Assembly: GCA_003233455.1 (NCBI GenBank)
Contig: QILQ01000021.1
Coordinates: 1 to 36,857, forward strand
Origin: Candidatus Zambryskiibacteriota bacterium
GTDB lineage: Bacteria > Patescibacteriota > Minisyncoccia > Phycocordibacterales > WO2-35-19
DNA: 36,857 nucleotides
Direction: 5' to 3'
This document shows positions 8,603-14,608 of the stretch, in pieces (position 1 is the first letter of the stretch; every line of letters begins with the position of its first letter). The position numbers and the translations under genes were made by a program. The notes under the pieces were generated by a model. It was not told where the DNA came from. It did no database searches and saw nothing but the letters and a program-made list of their open reading frames with translations.

Positions 8603-8784
8603 GTTAAGTGGTTTTTGAATTTCCTAATAGGAAATTCAAGGGCGTATGGTGGATGCCTAGACTAGAAATAGCGATGAAGGACGTGGCGTGGCGGCGATAC
8701 GCTTCGGGGAGGTGCCTAGCAACCTTTGATCCGGAGATTTCCGAATGGGGAAACCCCCCGACTTTAGTCGGGACCGTGCTTCAC

Positions 8785-8935
8785 TTTCGTTCAGCACTAA
8801 TTTTCAATTTTCAATTTAAAATTTTCAAATAATTTCTAATTTCCAATGTTTAAAAATTAAGACATTGAAAATTTAATGAAAATTAAAAATTAAAAATTAA
8901 AAATTTCGTGACGAGCGGTAGCGAGGCACGGGGCA
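8785..8935 (+). other. AT-rich insertion in domain I of 23S (helix 9/10 region)
   Basis: gaccgtgcttcac...attttcaattttcaattt...aaaattaaaaattaaaaattt...gtgacgagcggtagcgaggcacgggg replaces a short E. coli hairpin around 131-148. Confidence 0.7.
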
Positions 8936-9027
8936 TACCCGGGGAAGTAAAACATTTCAGTACCCGGAGGAAAAGAAACTAATAAGTATTGCGTAAGTAG
9001 CGGCGAGCGAAAGCGCAGAAGCCCAAA

Positions 9028-9118
9028 CTGAACACTGAACTTAAATTTCAAAAAAGGTGAGACCTTGAAAATTTTCCAAGGTCTCACCTTAGGATTGAAA
9101 TTTAAGTTCAGTGTTCAG
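9028..9118 (+). other. IVS-like nested hairpin insertion in domain I of 23S
   Basis: Outer 23-bp perfect stem (9028-9050/9096-9118) enclosing aaggtgagaccttg-aaaattttc-caaggtctcacctt (9054-9090). Confidence 0.85.
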
Positions 9119-10056
9119 GGTTGTAAGACGTAAGTGTTATGTTTACATAAGGAAAGTTACAAAATTGTTTGTTAGAAGAAGCTTCTGGAAAGAAGCACCC
9201 CAGAGGGTAATAGTCCCGTATTTGAAAACAAATAATCTTTCTTGCTTATGTTCTTGAGTACCTCGAGACACGAAAAGCTCGGGGGAATCTGCCGGAACTA
9301 ACCGGTAAGGCTAAATATATTTCTAGATCGATAGTGAACTAGTACCGTGAGGGAAAGGTGAAAAGTAGCCCGGTGAGGGCGGTGAAATAGACCTGAAACC
9401 ATATGCCTACAAGGAGTCAGAGCGGACGCTTGCGTCCGTCATGGCGTGCCTATTGAAGAATGAGCCAACGAGTTAATGTATGTGGCTGCCTAAGTGGAAT
9501 ACCCACTGAGGCCTAGTGAAAGCGAGCGTGAATAGCGCGAAATAATAGTCGTATATATTAGACCCGAAGCCAAGTGAGCTTGCCATGGGCAGGGTGAAGC
9601 CTCTCGAAGGAGAGGTGGAGGCCCGAACCGGTTGGTCGTGCGATTCCTTCGGATGACCTGTGGTAAGAAGTGAAAAGCTAATCGAACTTGGTAATAGCTG
9701 GTTCTCTCCGAAAGAGCTTTTGGGTTCGCGTCGCGTGTTCCTGTTGGGGGTAGAGCACTGGAAGGTTTAGACAGGGAGCAATCTCGCTAAACCTATCAAA
9801 CTCCGAATACCAGCAGTTAAAAATGCGGCAGTTAGACGGTGGGGGCTAAGCTCCACTCGTCAAAAAGGAAACAGCCTAGATCTCTATTTAAGGTCCCTAA
9901 ATTTATGCTAAGTGCGCTTAAGGCGGTGAAATTTCTGTGACAATGAGGAGGTTGGCTTAGAAGCAGCCACCCTTTAAAGAAAGCGTAACAGCTCACTCAT
10001 TCAGAGATTTTGCGCCGAAGATAATCGGGGCTAAGCATAATACCGAAACTGAGGGT

Positions 10057-10143
10057 TTGTAAACTTTATTTTCGCAATTTTTAAGGGGAGACCTTTAAGA
10101 AATTTCCCAAGGTCTCCCCTTGGGGCGAAAATGAAGTTTGCAA
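10057..10143 (+). other. IVS-like hairpin insertion at the helix 45 position of 23S
   Basis: ttgtaaactttattttcgc/gcgaaaatgaagtttgcaa stem enclosing aaggggagacctttaagaaatttcccaaggtctcccctt. Confidence 0.8.
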
Positions 10144-10875
10144 GCGGTAGGAGAGTATTCGCATCCGCTGTGAAGGTAAAGGGGTAACCCATGCTGGAGC
10201 GTTGCGAAGTAAGAATGTTGGCACAAGTAACCACAACGCACCTGAAAACGGTGCGCGCCGAAAGACTAAGGTTTCCTTGGCGATGACAATCAGCCAAGGG
10301 TTAGTCGGGCCTAAGGGAATGGCGAAAGCCGTACTCGATGGACACACGGTTAATATTCCGTGACTTTTGTATGTTGCGATGGAGAGACGGAGTGCAGTAT
10401 GTATTGCTCATTATTGGATTTGAGTCGGTATTGTAAGGGTGTCGCATAGGTAAATCCGTGCGACTCTGTTTAATCAGAAATCCAAGCAATATTGAAACCT
10501 GGAGATTCGTCAAAGGGGATTTTACAAAGCGCGCTTCCAAGAAAAACTTCTAAGCATAAACATATAAAAACCGTACCGTAAACCGACACAGGTAGTCAGG
10601 TCGAGAAGACCAAGGCGAACGAGTGAGATGTCCCCAAGGAACTCGGCAAAAAAGCGGCCGTAACTTCGGAATAAGGCCTGCCCACAGTAATGTGGGCTGC
10701 AACAAAAGTATCCCTGGCGACTGTTTATCAAAAACACAGCTCCCTGCGAACTCGTAAGAGGATGTATAGGGGGTGACGCCTGACCAATGCCAGAAGGTTA
10801 AACAACGACGTTGTGTGAATCGTAAGATTTGTATGGTGATTGTTGTAAGCCCTGGTGAATGTCGGCAATAACTAT

Positions 10876-12343: not shown

Positions 12344-12600
12344 GAGATGGTTGGTCGAATCCGTGGCGCCTCCAGAAGTTTAATCCACTTCAAAATAAAT
12401 AAAAAAGGGGGACCACAGTAAGTAATTATTGTGAGAAAAGTTAGTAAAATGCTGGGAAATCTCAATGAGACAATCAGCAGGATACACATTATGTGAAATC
12501 CTCAGAGACTAAACGCTAACTATCCTGAGATTTATCCAAGGATAATGATATAGTCCGAACTTCATGGTGACATGAAGAGTGCAACAGAAATGATTGCATC

Positions 12601-12637
12601 ACTGAAATGTTGAACACTCGGTGTTGAACATTTTAGT
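12601..12637. repeat. Family B palindrome near the 3' end of intron 3
   Basis: actgaaatgttgaacactcggtgttgaacattttagt; same core as 12319-12343. Confidence 0.85.
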
Positions 12638-12890
12638 AGTAACAAAATGCCTAAAGAGTAACGGAGGAGCCTATTAAGGTCAGCTAGCCGTGAATGGAAA
12701 CCATGGCGATAGTGTATAGGCACAAGCTGGCTTAACTGCGAGACGTACATGTCGAGCAGATGCGAAAGCAGAGCTAAGTGATCCTTTGGTTCGTGTTAGA
12801 TGCGGCCAAAGCTCAACGGATAAAAGCTACTCCGGGGATAACAGGCTGGTTCCGCCTAAGCGTCCAGAGCGACGGCGGAGTTCGGCACCT

Positions 12891-13736
12891 TAACTCTCAA
12901 TTAAAAACTGAGAAACATCGGGGTGCCTATCACAGTAATGTGATACAAAAACAATTTGGCTTATAACGGTGAACTCCATATACAAGCCTTATGTCGTAAT
13001 GATATAATTATAAATATGGACAATACCGTGGGAAGTCTAACTCAATTACAAAAGTCATTTATCATTGGAACTCTTTTAGGAGATGGATATATTCGTCAAA
13101 TAAAAGGGAGAAAAGATGCATTTCTTGAAGTAAATCATTCAATAATTCAAAAAGAATATGTTGAGTGGAAATATTCAGTCTTAAAAAATTTAACACGAAG
13201 TGGTCCAAAATCTCGAAAGGGAAATGGAACAAGAATAGCTTATAGATTTTTTACGAAACAACATCCTGAATTTACTAAAATAATGAATTTATTTTATAAG
13301 GATAAAAAGAAATGTATTCCTAATCTAATTTTAGATTCAATGATTTTGGCAGTATGGTTCATGGATGATGGAAGTAGATGTAGTAAAGAGAATGTATATC
13401 TTAATACTCAACAATTTTCAAAAAATGATCAATATAAGTTATTAGGATTTTTAGAAAAGATGGGATTAAGTGGAACATTAAATAAAGATAAAAAATATTA
13501 TAGAATTAGATTTAAAACATCTAGTATTCATAAATTATTTAAGATAATTAAAAAACATATTATTCCTTCCATGAAATATAAAATTGGGTTATGACCCTGT
13601 AGAGACTTTCCGCTTAATGCGGAGGAGTGAGAGTATAAACTCTTGCTAATACGCCGAACCCCTTCTAAATATAAAAATATTTATTAGGGTGAAGATATAG
13701 TCCGATCCTCCTGGTAACAGGAGAAAAATACGATAG
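12891..13736 (+). mobile_element. Group I intron 4 in 23S (after E. coli U2500, peptidyl transferase centre), LAGLIDADG ORF
   Basis: 5' exon GGCACCU pairs IGS GGGUGCC (12921-12927); P10 ACAUCG (12915-12920) pairs 3' exon CGAUGU; ends in G; gaagatatagtccga motif. Confidence 0.95.
13016..13594 (+). CDS. LAGLIDADG homing endonuclease (intron 4)
   Basis: SFIIGTLLGDGYI...SMILAVWFMDDGS double motif; ATG at 13016 preferred over the upstream non-ATG start. Confidence 0.88.
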   Translation: MDNTVGSLTQLQKSFIIGTLLGDGYIRQIKGRKDAFLEVNHSIIQKEYVEWKYSVLKNLTRSGPKSRKGNGTRIAYRFFTKQHPEFTKIMNLFYKDKKKCIPNLILDSMILAVWFMDDGSRCSKENVYLNTQQFSKNDQYKLLGFLEKMGLSGTLNKDKKYYRIRFKTSSIHKLFKIIKKHIIPSMKYKIGL

Positions 13737-13829
13737 CGATGTCGGCTCAACTTATCCTGGGGGTGGAGAAGCTCCCAAGGGTATGGCTGTTCGCCATTTA
13801 AAAAGTTACGCGAGCTGGGTTCAGACCGT

Positions 13830-14298
13830 GGAATTACAAAACGAAAGTATAATTTCGTCAAGTTTGGTAATTGCACAGTCTGAATCCTTAGAGGAAAATC
13901 CGCCAGTTGGCGGAAACTGTTATAAATTTTTTCGTTTTGAAAATTATTAAAATTCTCAAGATTTTGATAATTAAGAATAGTAGAACCAATCAAATCACGG
14001 CGGTCACGTAAAATTTGTTAACGCAAATCATGTGATGAAGTTGACTTATATCGGTGAAATCCAATTTGGACAACACCGAGGGAAGTTTTGTTTTGTAAGA
14101 GGAGGAGGACTATAGTAAGGGCACACTTTAATTAGTGTGTAATGAGCCAGAGTAATTCTGGGTATGCTCTCCTAGGGTAATCCTACTCCTCATTCTCTTA
14201 CAAAACAAAACACCCGTAGAGACTAAACGTCAACTATTCCAAATGAAAGTTTGGAAGAAAGTTATAGTCCATTGCCACAAGTAATTGTGGGTAACAAG
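13830..14298 (+). mobile_element. Group I intron 5 in 23S (after E. coli U2593), no ORF
   Basis: 5' exon GACCGU pairs IGS GCGGUC (14000-14005); P10 UCACG pairs 3' exon CGUGA; P3 gttgac/gtcaac; gtagagactaaacg...agttatagtcc; ends in G. Confidence 0.92.
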
Positions 14299-14608
14299 CG
14301 TGAGACAGGTTGGTCTCCTATCTACTGTAGGCGTTGATTCTTGAGGGGATTTGATTCTAGTACGAGAGGACCGAATTGAACTGACCTCTGGTCTGCCTGC
14401 TGTTCTGCCAAGAGCATCGCAGGGTAGCTAAGTCGGGAATGGATAACCTCTGAAAGCATATAAGAGGGAAGCCAACCCCAAGATTAGGAATCGTTAAGGA
14501 TCGTGAGAGATGATCACGTTGATAGGCGCTAGGTGTAAGTACAGTAATGTATTAAGCCGAGGCGTACTAATTTCCGATCTTATTAGGAAATTCGGAAATC
14601 CACACATT

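Follow-up and report, generated by a model that had tools for sequence, protein, structure and literature searches.

A sole 23S rRNA gene with five group I introns in a Parcubacteria-type bacterium, two of which may hold their exon with a second intron segment

Can a ribosomal RNA (rRNA) gene that is interrupted five times around the peptidyl-transferase centre still be a cell's only source of 23S rRNA? This question is raised by contig QILQ01000021.1 of Candidatus Zambryskiibacteriota bacterium (assembly GCA_003233455.1), whose 36,857 nucleotides are the window analysed here and which is contig 8 of a 736-kb draft genome in 52 contigs that is 96.6% complete. The 23S gene (8610-14598, plus strand; RF02541, 1703.6 bits) consists of six exons, its length is about doubled by the five introns, and a genome search returned one 23S match only, making it the sole copy in the assembly. 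We consider it very likely that this is a single functional 23S gene of a Parcubacteria-type bacterium (Candidate Phyla Radiation, CPR, or Patescibacteria) colonised by five group I introns at conserved homing sites, most likely all self-excising, and that introns 3 and 5 carry an extra hairpin domain that pairs with the exon; splicing itself we infer from the DNA.

Alignment to E. coli 23S rRNA placed all five insertions where they had been proposed in an original prediction made from the letters alone, each preceded by a U and ending in G, after U1917, U1951, U2262, U2500 and U2593, and the proposed E. coli numbers were correct once an offset in the reference had been corrected. Joined in silico, the exons aligned with the E. 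coli molecule end to end and without a break (67% identity over 2839 columns), and every junction restored a conserved rRNA motif (AACUAU/AAUUGUCC, GGU/AAGUUC, AUCCU/CCUAAAG, CACCU/CGAUGU and ACCGU/CGUGAG). The exon between introns 1 and 2 measures 34 nt. The gene ends are enclosed in a processing stem of -70.1 kcal/mol, compared with a mean of -24.5 and a minimum of -40.7 kcal/mol for shuffled sequences, and a 5S gene (14701-14807) lies downstream. Together with the unique copy, the intron cores and the same-site homologues described below, these features bear out the prediction of five group I introns in a functional-looking 23S gene.

The Rfam group I model RF00028 matched all five insertions, as expected (scores in Table 1), and the introns at U2262 and U2593 passed its curated gathering cut-off of 50 bits. 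The lower scores of the other three go along with open reading frames (ORFs) or long loops that split their cores. The R and S elements of P7 were nevertheless recognisable in all five introns, and introns 3 and 5 have compact cores in which P3-P9 can be identified.

A P1 helix with a U.G pair between the internal guide sequence (IGS) and the exon was found at all five 5' splice sites (Table 1), clear in four introns, which had been predicted, and weak at U2262, which we add; homologues of the U2262 intron keep GGGG or AGGGGGAC as guide. The three strong P10 pairings that had been expected were likewise present, at U1917, U2500 and U2593. Across the introns compared at each site, the U.G pair stands opposite the last exon base in 7/7 cases at 1917 and 11/13 at 2500, and at 2593 the P10 motif CACG lies immediately 5' of GCGG in 57 of 76. 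At U2593 and U2262 the best-scoring register put a non-canonical U-A pair at the 5' splice site, which we rejected as P1 because it belongs to the second helix described below; the true U2593 IGS is the conserved GCGGU further in, preceded by the P10 segment CACG.

Only two introns encode endonucleases, again as predicted. The ORF of intron 1 extends into the ribozyme core, and its protein matched I-SmaMI and related meganucleases in the PDB (1e-38), while that of intron 4 matched I-SceI structures (1e-13). We took the start of the latter to be the ATG at 13016, which gives 192 aa; the entry in the ORF table begins at TTG 12956. Both LAGLIDADG ORFs are intact, and introns 2, 3 and 5 contain no sense-strand ORF of at least 90 aa.

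In introns 3 and 5 a second segment of the intron pairs with the exon. At U2593, the paired exon segment lies just upstream of P1 and its intron partner 5' of the IGS. Among 130 unique U2593 introns, collected within the order and the class and by a broad scan of genomes, a full 8-bp match 5' of the IGS occurred in 112, compared with 3% of shuffled sequences, and the two variable exon positions covary with the intron (exon:intron CG:GC in 59, the wobble combination CG:GU in 8, CA:GU in 40 and UG:AC in 5). In most of the 18 introns without the helix the IGS is at most about 33 nt from the 5' end, i.e. the 5' domain is absent, and these introns include ones recorded as Actinomycetota, Omnitrophota, Saccharibacteria and Woesebacteria. 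U2593 introns with a GCGU guide in the first dozen bases and no 5' hairpin domain were also seen outside the Parcubacteria-type group (L193, L199, L211 and L215). The segments follow the order A-B/A'-B', such that the second helix and P1 would make a pseudoknot if both form. At 1917 and 2500, the longest exon-intron complementary runs were not above chance in length and consisted mostly of P1 itself.

At U2262, the exon sequence GGGCGN pairs with the intron in 11/11 introns, with compensating changes in two of them (L065 and L100). Taken singly, one of the 11 exceeded the 95% level in a run-length test, and the support for this helix is conservation and covariation, not run length. The U2262 introns of L036, L046 and L076 repeat the exon-like GGCGCCTCCT inside the intron.

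In the scheme that these features suggest, each intron would excise itself by the two-step, guanosine-initiated reaction, the 5' site being fixed by P1 with its wobble pair and the 3' site by the terminal omega-G, together with P10 where present. The presumed homing sites lie around H69, H71, the P loop and the peptidyl-transferase centre; the endonucleases of introns 1 and 4 would cut intronless 23S alleles there, and the ORF-less introns 2, 3 and 5 may be relics or may ride on earlier homing. Introns 3 and 5 would, in addition, pair the base of their 5' hairpin domain with the exon segment that adjoins P1 on its 5' side, and two intron segments could hold the exon. Several points weigh against this scheme. 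Three of the five introns (U1951, U2500 and U1917) score below the Rfam gathering value, and the weak P1 at U2262 is accompanied by no clear P10. The 112 matches among 130 introns came from a search for complementarity in related introns and do not amount to independent trials. Moreover, a full P1 and the second helix have two bases in common. The hairpin of that helix additionally binds AC to the GU of the splice site, and the helix could hinder splicing by competition instead of aiding it.

Tentatively, we read the 5' hairpin domain of U2593 and U2262 introns in Parcubacteria-type bacteria as a second exon-binding element, which would pair 8-10 nt of the peptidyl-transferase-centre or P-loop exon just 5' of P1, in an order that crosses the IGS pairing, and mask ribosomal active-site bases until splicing. 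The role that we favour is a co-transcriptional one, in which the domain would hold the 5' exon until the distant IGS has been made and then hand it over to P1. Group II introns pair two adjacent segments of the 5' exon with two intron segments, the exon-binding sites EBS1 and EBS2, in the same crossing order A-B-A'-B'; here chemistry and fold are those of group I, and the likeness is an analogy only. Alternatively, the helix could be a rival of P1: by pairing GU with AC, its hairpin would hide the 5' splice site and slow or control splicing, and P1 would form only after strand exchange. We regard this as possible though short of probable. The commonest bases 5' of A' (ACAG, ACCG or ACGG) can also pair with the exon GU and C, the minimum free energy (MFE) fold of the window's exon plus the 5' domain through the IGS contains the second-helix hairpin and leaves P1 unformed, and there is the two-base overlap with a 6-bp P1. 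However, 39 introns out of 103 have a C at the fifth position of the IGS, unable to pair with exon A(-5), so that P1 is only 4 bp long, compatible with the second helix and without a required overlap with its 8 bp; in the remaining introns one or two bases belong to both helices. Such wide conservation would also be unexpected of an element that only inhibits. Should the second exon-binding element prove functional, one large clade of natural group I introns would use two segments to recognise the exon, a result of relevance to exon recognition, to co-transcriptional rRNA folding around introns and to the design of trans-splicing ribozymes. A search for alternative exon pairing found no match among the titles and abstracts of an open-access library, and the second exon pairing of these two introns may be undescribed.

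Protein dependence in vivo is common among group I introns. The low core scores of introns 1, 2 and 4 would fit a dependence of some introns on a maturase or host factor, group I in structure yet not self-splicing, which we regard as unlikely, though worth keeping in mind, in view of the compact P3-P9 cores identifiable in introns 3 and 5; self-excision is the reading that we prefer.

How unusual is a 23S gene of this kind? Exon matches were chained along the 23S regions of about 80 relatives, among which 57 same-order genes were complete over E. coli positions 1880-2780; insertions at 1931 and 2657 were counted from the chained alignments alone. Intron-sized insertions numbered none in nine of these genes, one in 12, two in 17, three in 11, four in five, and five, six and eight in one gene each, i.e. 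five or more in 3/57. The gene with eight (L076, G109) carries them from 1917 to 2657, with a region total of 5.8 kb. All five sites of the window were also filled in other genes. Of the 45 genes in which both flanks of site 2593 were present (window included), 37 had an insertion there, and occupancy was 13/56 at 2500, 11/54 at 2262, 7/37 at 1917 and at least five at 1951. The best matches of introns 1, 3, 4 and 5 were introns at the same site, intron 4 sharing 83.5% identity with its counterpart in L036, as expected if homing or common descent had placed them.

These counts are in line with the CPR-wide survey of Tsurumaki et al. 2024 (PMC11270868), which reported 968 insertions in 284 of 348 CPR 23S genes (82%), up to 16 insertions per gene, 45% of insertions being group I, and ORF-less (222) and ORF-bearing (211) group I introns as equally common. 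Because both surveys show the same phenomenon, a five-intron 23S gene is not a surprise, and the suggestion that five introns are unusual found little support: the finding is real and of a known kind, in the upper tail of the known distribution. The CPR insertions described in PMC11270868 resemble those of the window in that several group I introns occupy the 3' half of a single 23S gene, at sites including 1917, 1952 and 2593, which that paper names, some with single-domain LAGLIDADG_1 or LAGLIDADG_2 ORFs, with ORF-less copies common and with short insertions like intervening sequences (IVS) in the 5' half. Its main text lists sites 9-11 without position numbers, and 2262 and 2500 are not confirmed as named sites. 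The gene described here, present once and interrupted in its 3' half by several group I introns at sites that recur, is a well-resolved example of this invasion, in which the sole source of 23S rRNA must splice five times. Guide sequences, hairpins, palindromes and repeats are not discussed in the main text of PMC11270868 (0 matches for these words); the second exon-intron helix and the palindrome copies described below are therefore additions to it.

A bacterial 23S gene with more than one LAGLIDADG group I intron is also known from Synechococcus sp. C9 (L1917, L1931 and L2593; Haugen et al. 2007, PMC1995217), where the introns number three and all bear ORFs. The L1917 ORF there passes through P7-P3-P8, comparable to the ORF that enters the core of intron 1 here, and L2593 is described as having a large extension of P7 and a P2 that is short, the consulted passages mentioning no second exon-intron helix. 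The same source lists an L1951 intron of Coxiella burnetii, at the site of intron 2, with 720 nt and a 157-aa ORF, whereas intron 2 is ORF-less.

Table 1. Coordinates of the introns, their pairings and associated features in the window.
Feature	Coordinates	Strand	Basis
Intron 1, U1917/A1918, group I, 750 nt	10876-11625	+	alignment, RF00028 21.9 bits
Intron 2, U1951/A1952, group I, ORF-less, 335 nt	11660-11994	+	alignment, RF00028 49.8 bits
Intron 3, U2262/C2263, group I, ORF-less, 346 nt	12304-12649	+	RF00028 84.4 bits, aligned homologues
Intron 4, U2500/C2501, group I, 846 nt	12891-13736	+	alignment, RF00028 38.6 bits, same-site homologue
Intron 5, U2593/C2594, group I, ORF-less, 469 nt	13830-14298	+	RF00028 62.1 bits
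LAGLIDADG_1 homing endonuclease ORF, single-domain, 181 aa, intron 1	11020-11565	+	PF00961 2e-20
LAGLIDADG_2 homing endonuclease ORF, 192 aa, intron 4	13016-13594	+	PF03161 4.5e-39
IGS at U1917, GUAGUU	10886-10891		
P10 at U1917, ACAAUU	10880-10885 with 11626-11631		
IGS at U1951, GCCAG	11669-11673		
IGS at U2262, GGGGG, weak	12407-12411		
IGS at U2500, GGGUGCC	12921-12927		
P10 at U2500, ACAUCG	12915-12920 with 13737-13742		
IGS at U2593, GCGGUC	14000-14005		
P10 at U2593, UCACG	13995-13999 with 14299-14303		
Second exon-intron helix at U2593, exon GGUUCAGA with intron UCUGAAUC	13818-13825 with 13879-13886	+	conservation, covariation, MFE hairpin
Second exon-intron helix at U2262, exon GGGGCGCUAU with intron GUGGCGCCUC	12291-12300 with 12363-12372	+	homologue pairing, MFE fold
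REP-like palindrome copy 1, tip of 5' peripheral hairpin, intron 3	12320-12342	+	genome repeat, fold
REP-like palindrome copy 2, tip of peripheral hairpin just before 3' splice site, intron 3	12608-12630	+	genome repeat, fold
Processing stem, 5' arm	8541-8625	+	pairs with 14586-14690 region; duplex -70.1 kcal/mol
Non-intron insertion, E. coli ~130-175, mostly A/U hairpin	~8757-8927	+	alignment, fold
Hairpin insertion, nearly perfect, long, E. coli ~270-360, candidate RNase III-type IVS	~9028-9118	+	alignment, fold
Long hairpin insertion, nearly perfect, near E. coli 1160-1170 (helix 45 region)	~10054-10145	+	alignment, fold

Intron 3 contains two exact copies of a palindrome, TGTTNAACACTCGGTGTTNAACA, that resembles repetitive extragenic palindromic (REP) sequences and occurs at about 12 places in the genome, compared with none for the reversed control, and also in a few relatives. 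Five aligned U2262 introns (L036, L046, L075, L076 and L080) have no palindrome at either place, and the copies look like insertions of genome repeats into ribozyme loops, which suggests that an essential ribozyme can accommodate such repeats in its peripheral loops. An insert in a peripheral hairpin of L036, from the same genus, was considered as a further dispersed repeat and rejected, as it has one copy only. Besides the two in intron 3, the window holds copies at 6114-6136 and 26986-27008; one of the four lies inside a glycosyltransferase ORF and encodes GHSVLN there. On contig 52 (L117, 1-1900), three copies lie upstream of, inside and at the 3' end of a Y1 transposase gene related to REP-associated tyrosine transposases (RAYT; PF01797 1.2e-8; NF047646 44.8 bits, below its cut-off of 80). 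A second Y1/REP-transposase-like ORF is found in the window at 1843-2490 (PF01797 1.3e-9; NF047646 46.5 bits, also below cut-off).

Copies of this palindrome flank and interrupt a REP-transposase-like gene, and two direct copies bracket the intron core, an arrangement that recalls IStrons (PMC4227781) and REP/RAYT systems, in which a group I intron is likewise associated with sequences handled by Y1 (HUH) transposases. Mobilisation of intron 3 as such an element is nonetheless very improbable. Both splice sites lie outside the bracketed part, which could not splice after moving, the palindromes are internal, in peripheral loops of a resident rRNA intron, and no transposase ORF is present within intron 3. 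Palindrome-free homologues occupy the same site, and its location is therefore explained by homing. A search for REP sequences in group I introns found no match among the titles and abstracts of an open-access library.

A decaying or misassembled 23S gene, with the real rRNA coming from elsewhere, is hardly credible even for a draft of 52 contigs, as the nearly complete assembly gave one 23S match, the exons are conserved at every junction motif, the processing stem and 5S gene are intact, and independently assembled relatives carry insertions at the same sites.

A promoter-like TTGACA-17-TATACT (8200-8228) precedes the 23S gene by about 380 bp. The 16S gene, 1484 nt long and without an intron-sized insertion, is on contig 13 (L135, 28120-29603), unlinked to the 23S-5S pair.

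Three further insertions in the 5' half of the 23S gene, absent from the original prediction, are non-introns and probable IVS as judged by alignment and folding (Table 1). Long hairpins inserted within the 5' half of the gene, a trait of RNase III-processed IVS, are present at 9028-9118 and 10054-10145, the latter in the helix 45 region, which we take to be a classical IVS site. Group I splicing would not remove these hairpins, and the mature 23S rRNA may also be fragmented. In relatives, insertions were seen at further sites in the 5' half of the 23S gene.

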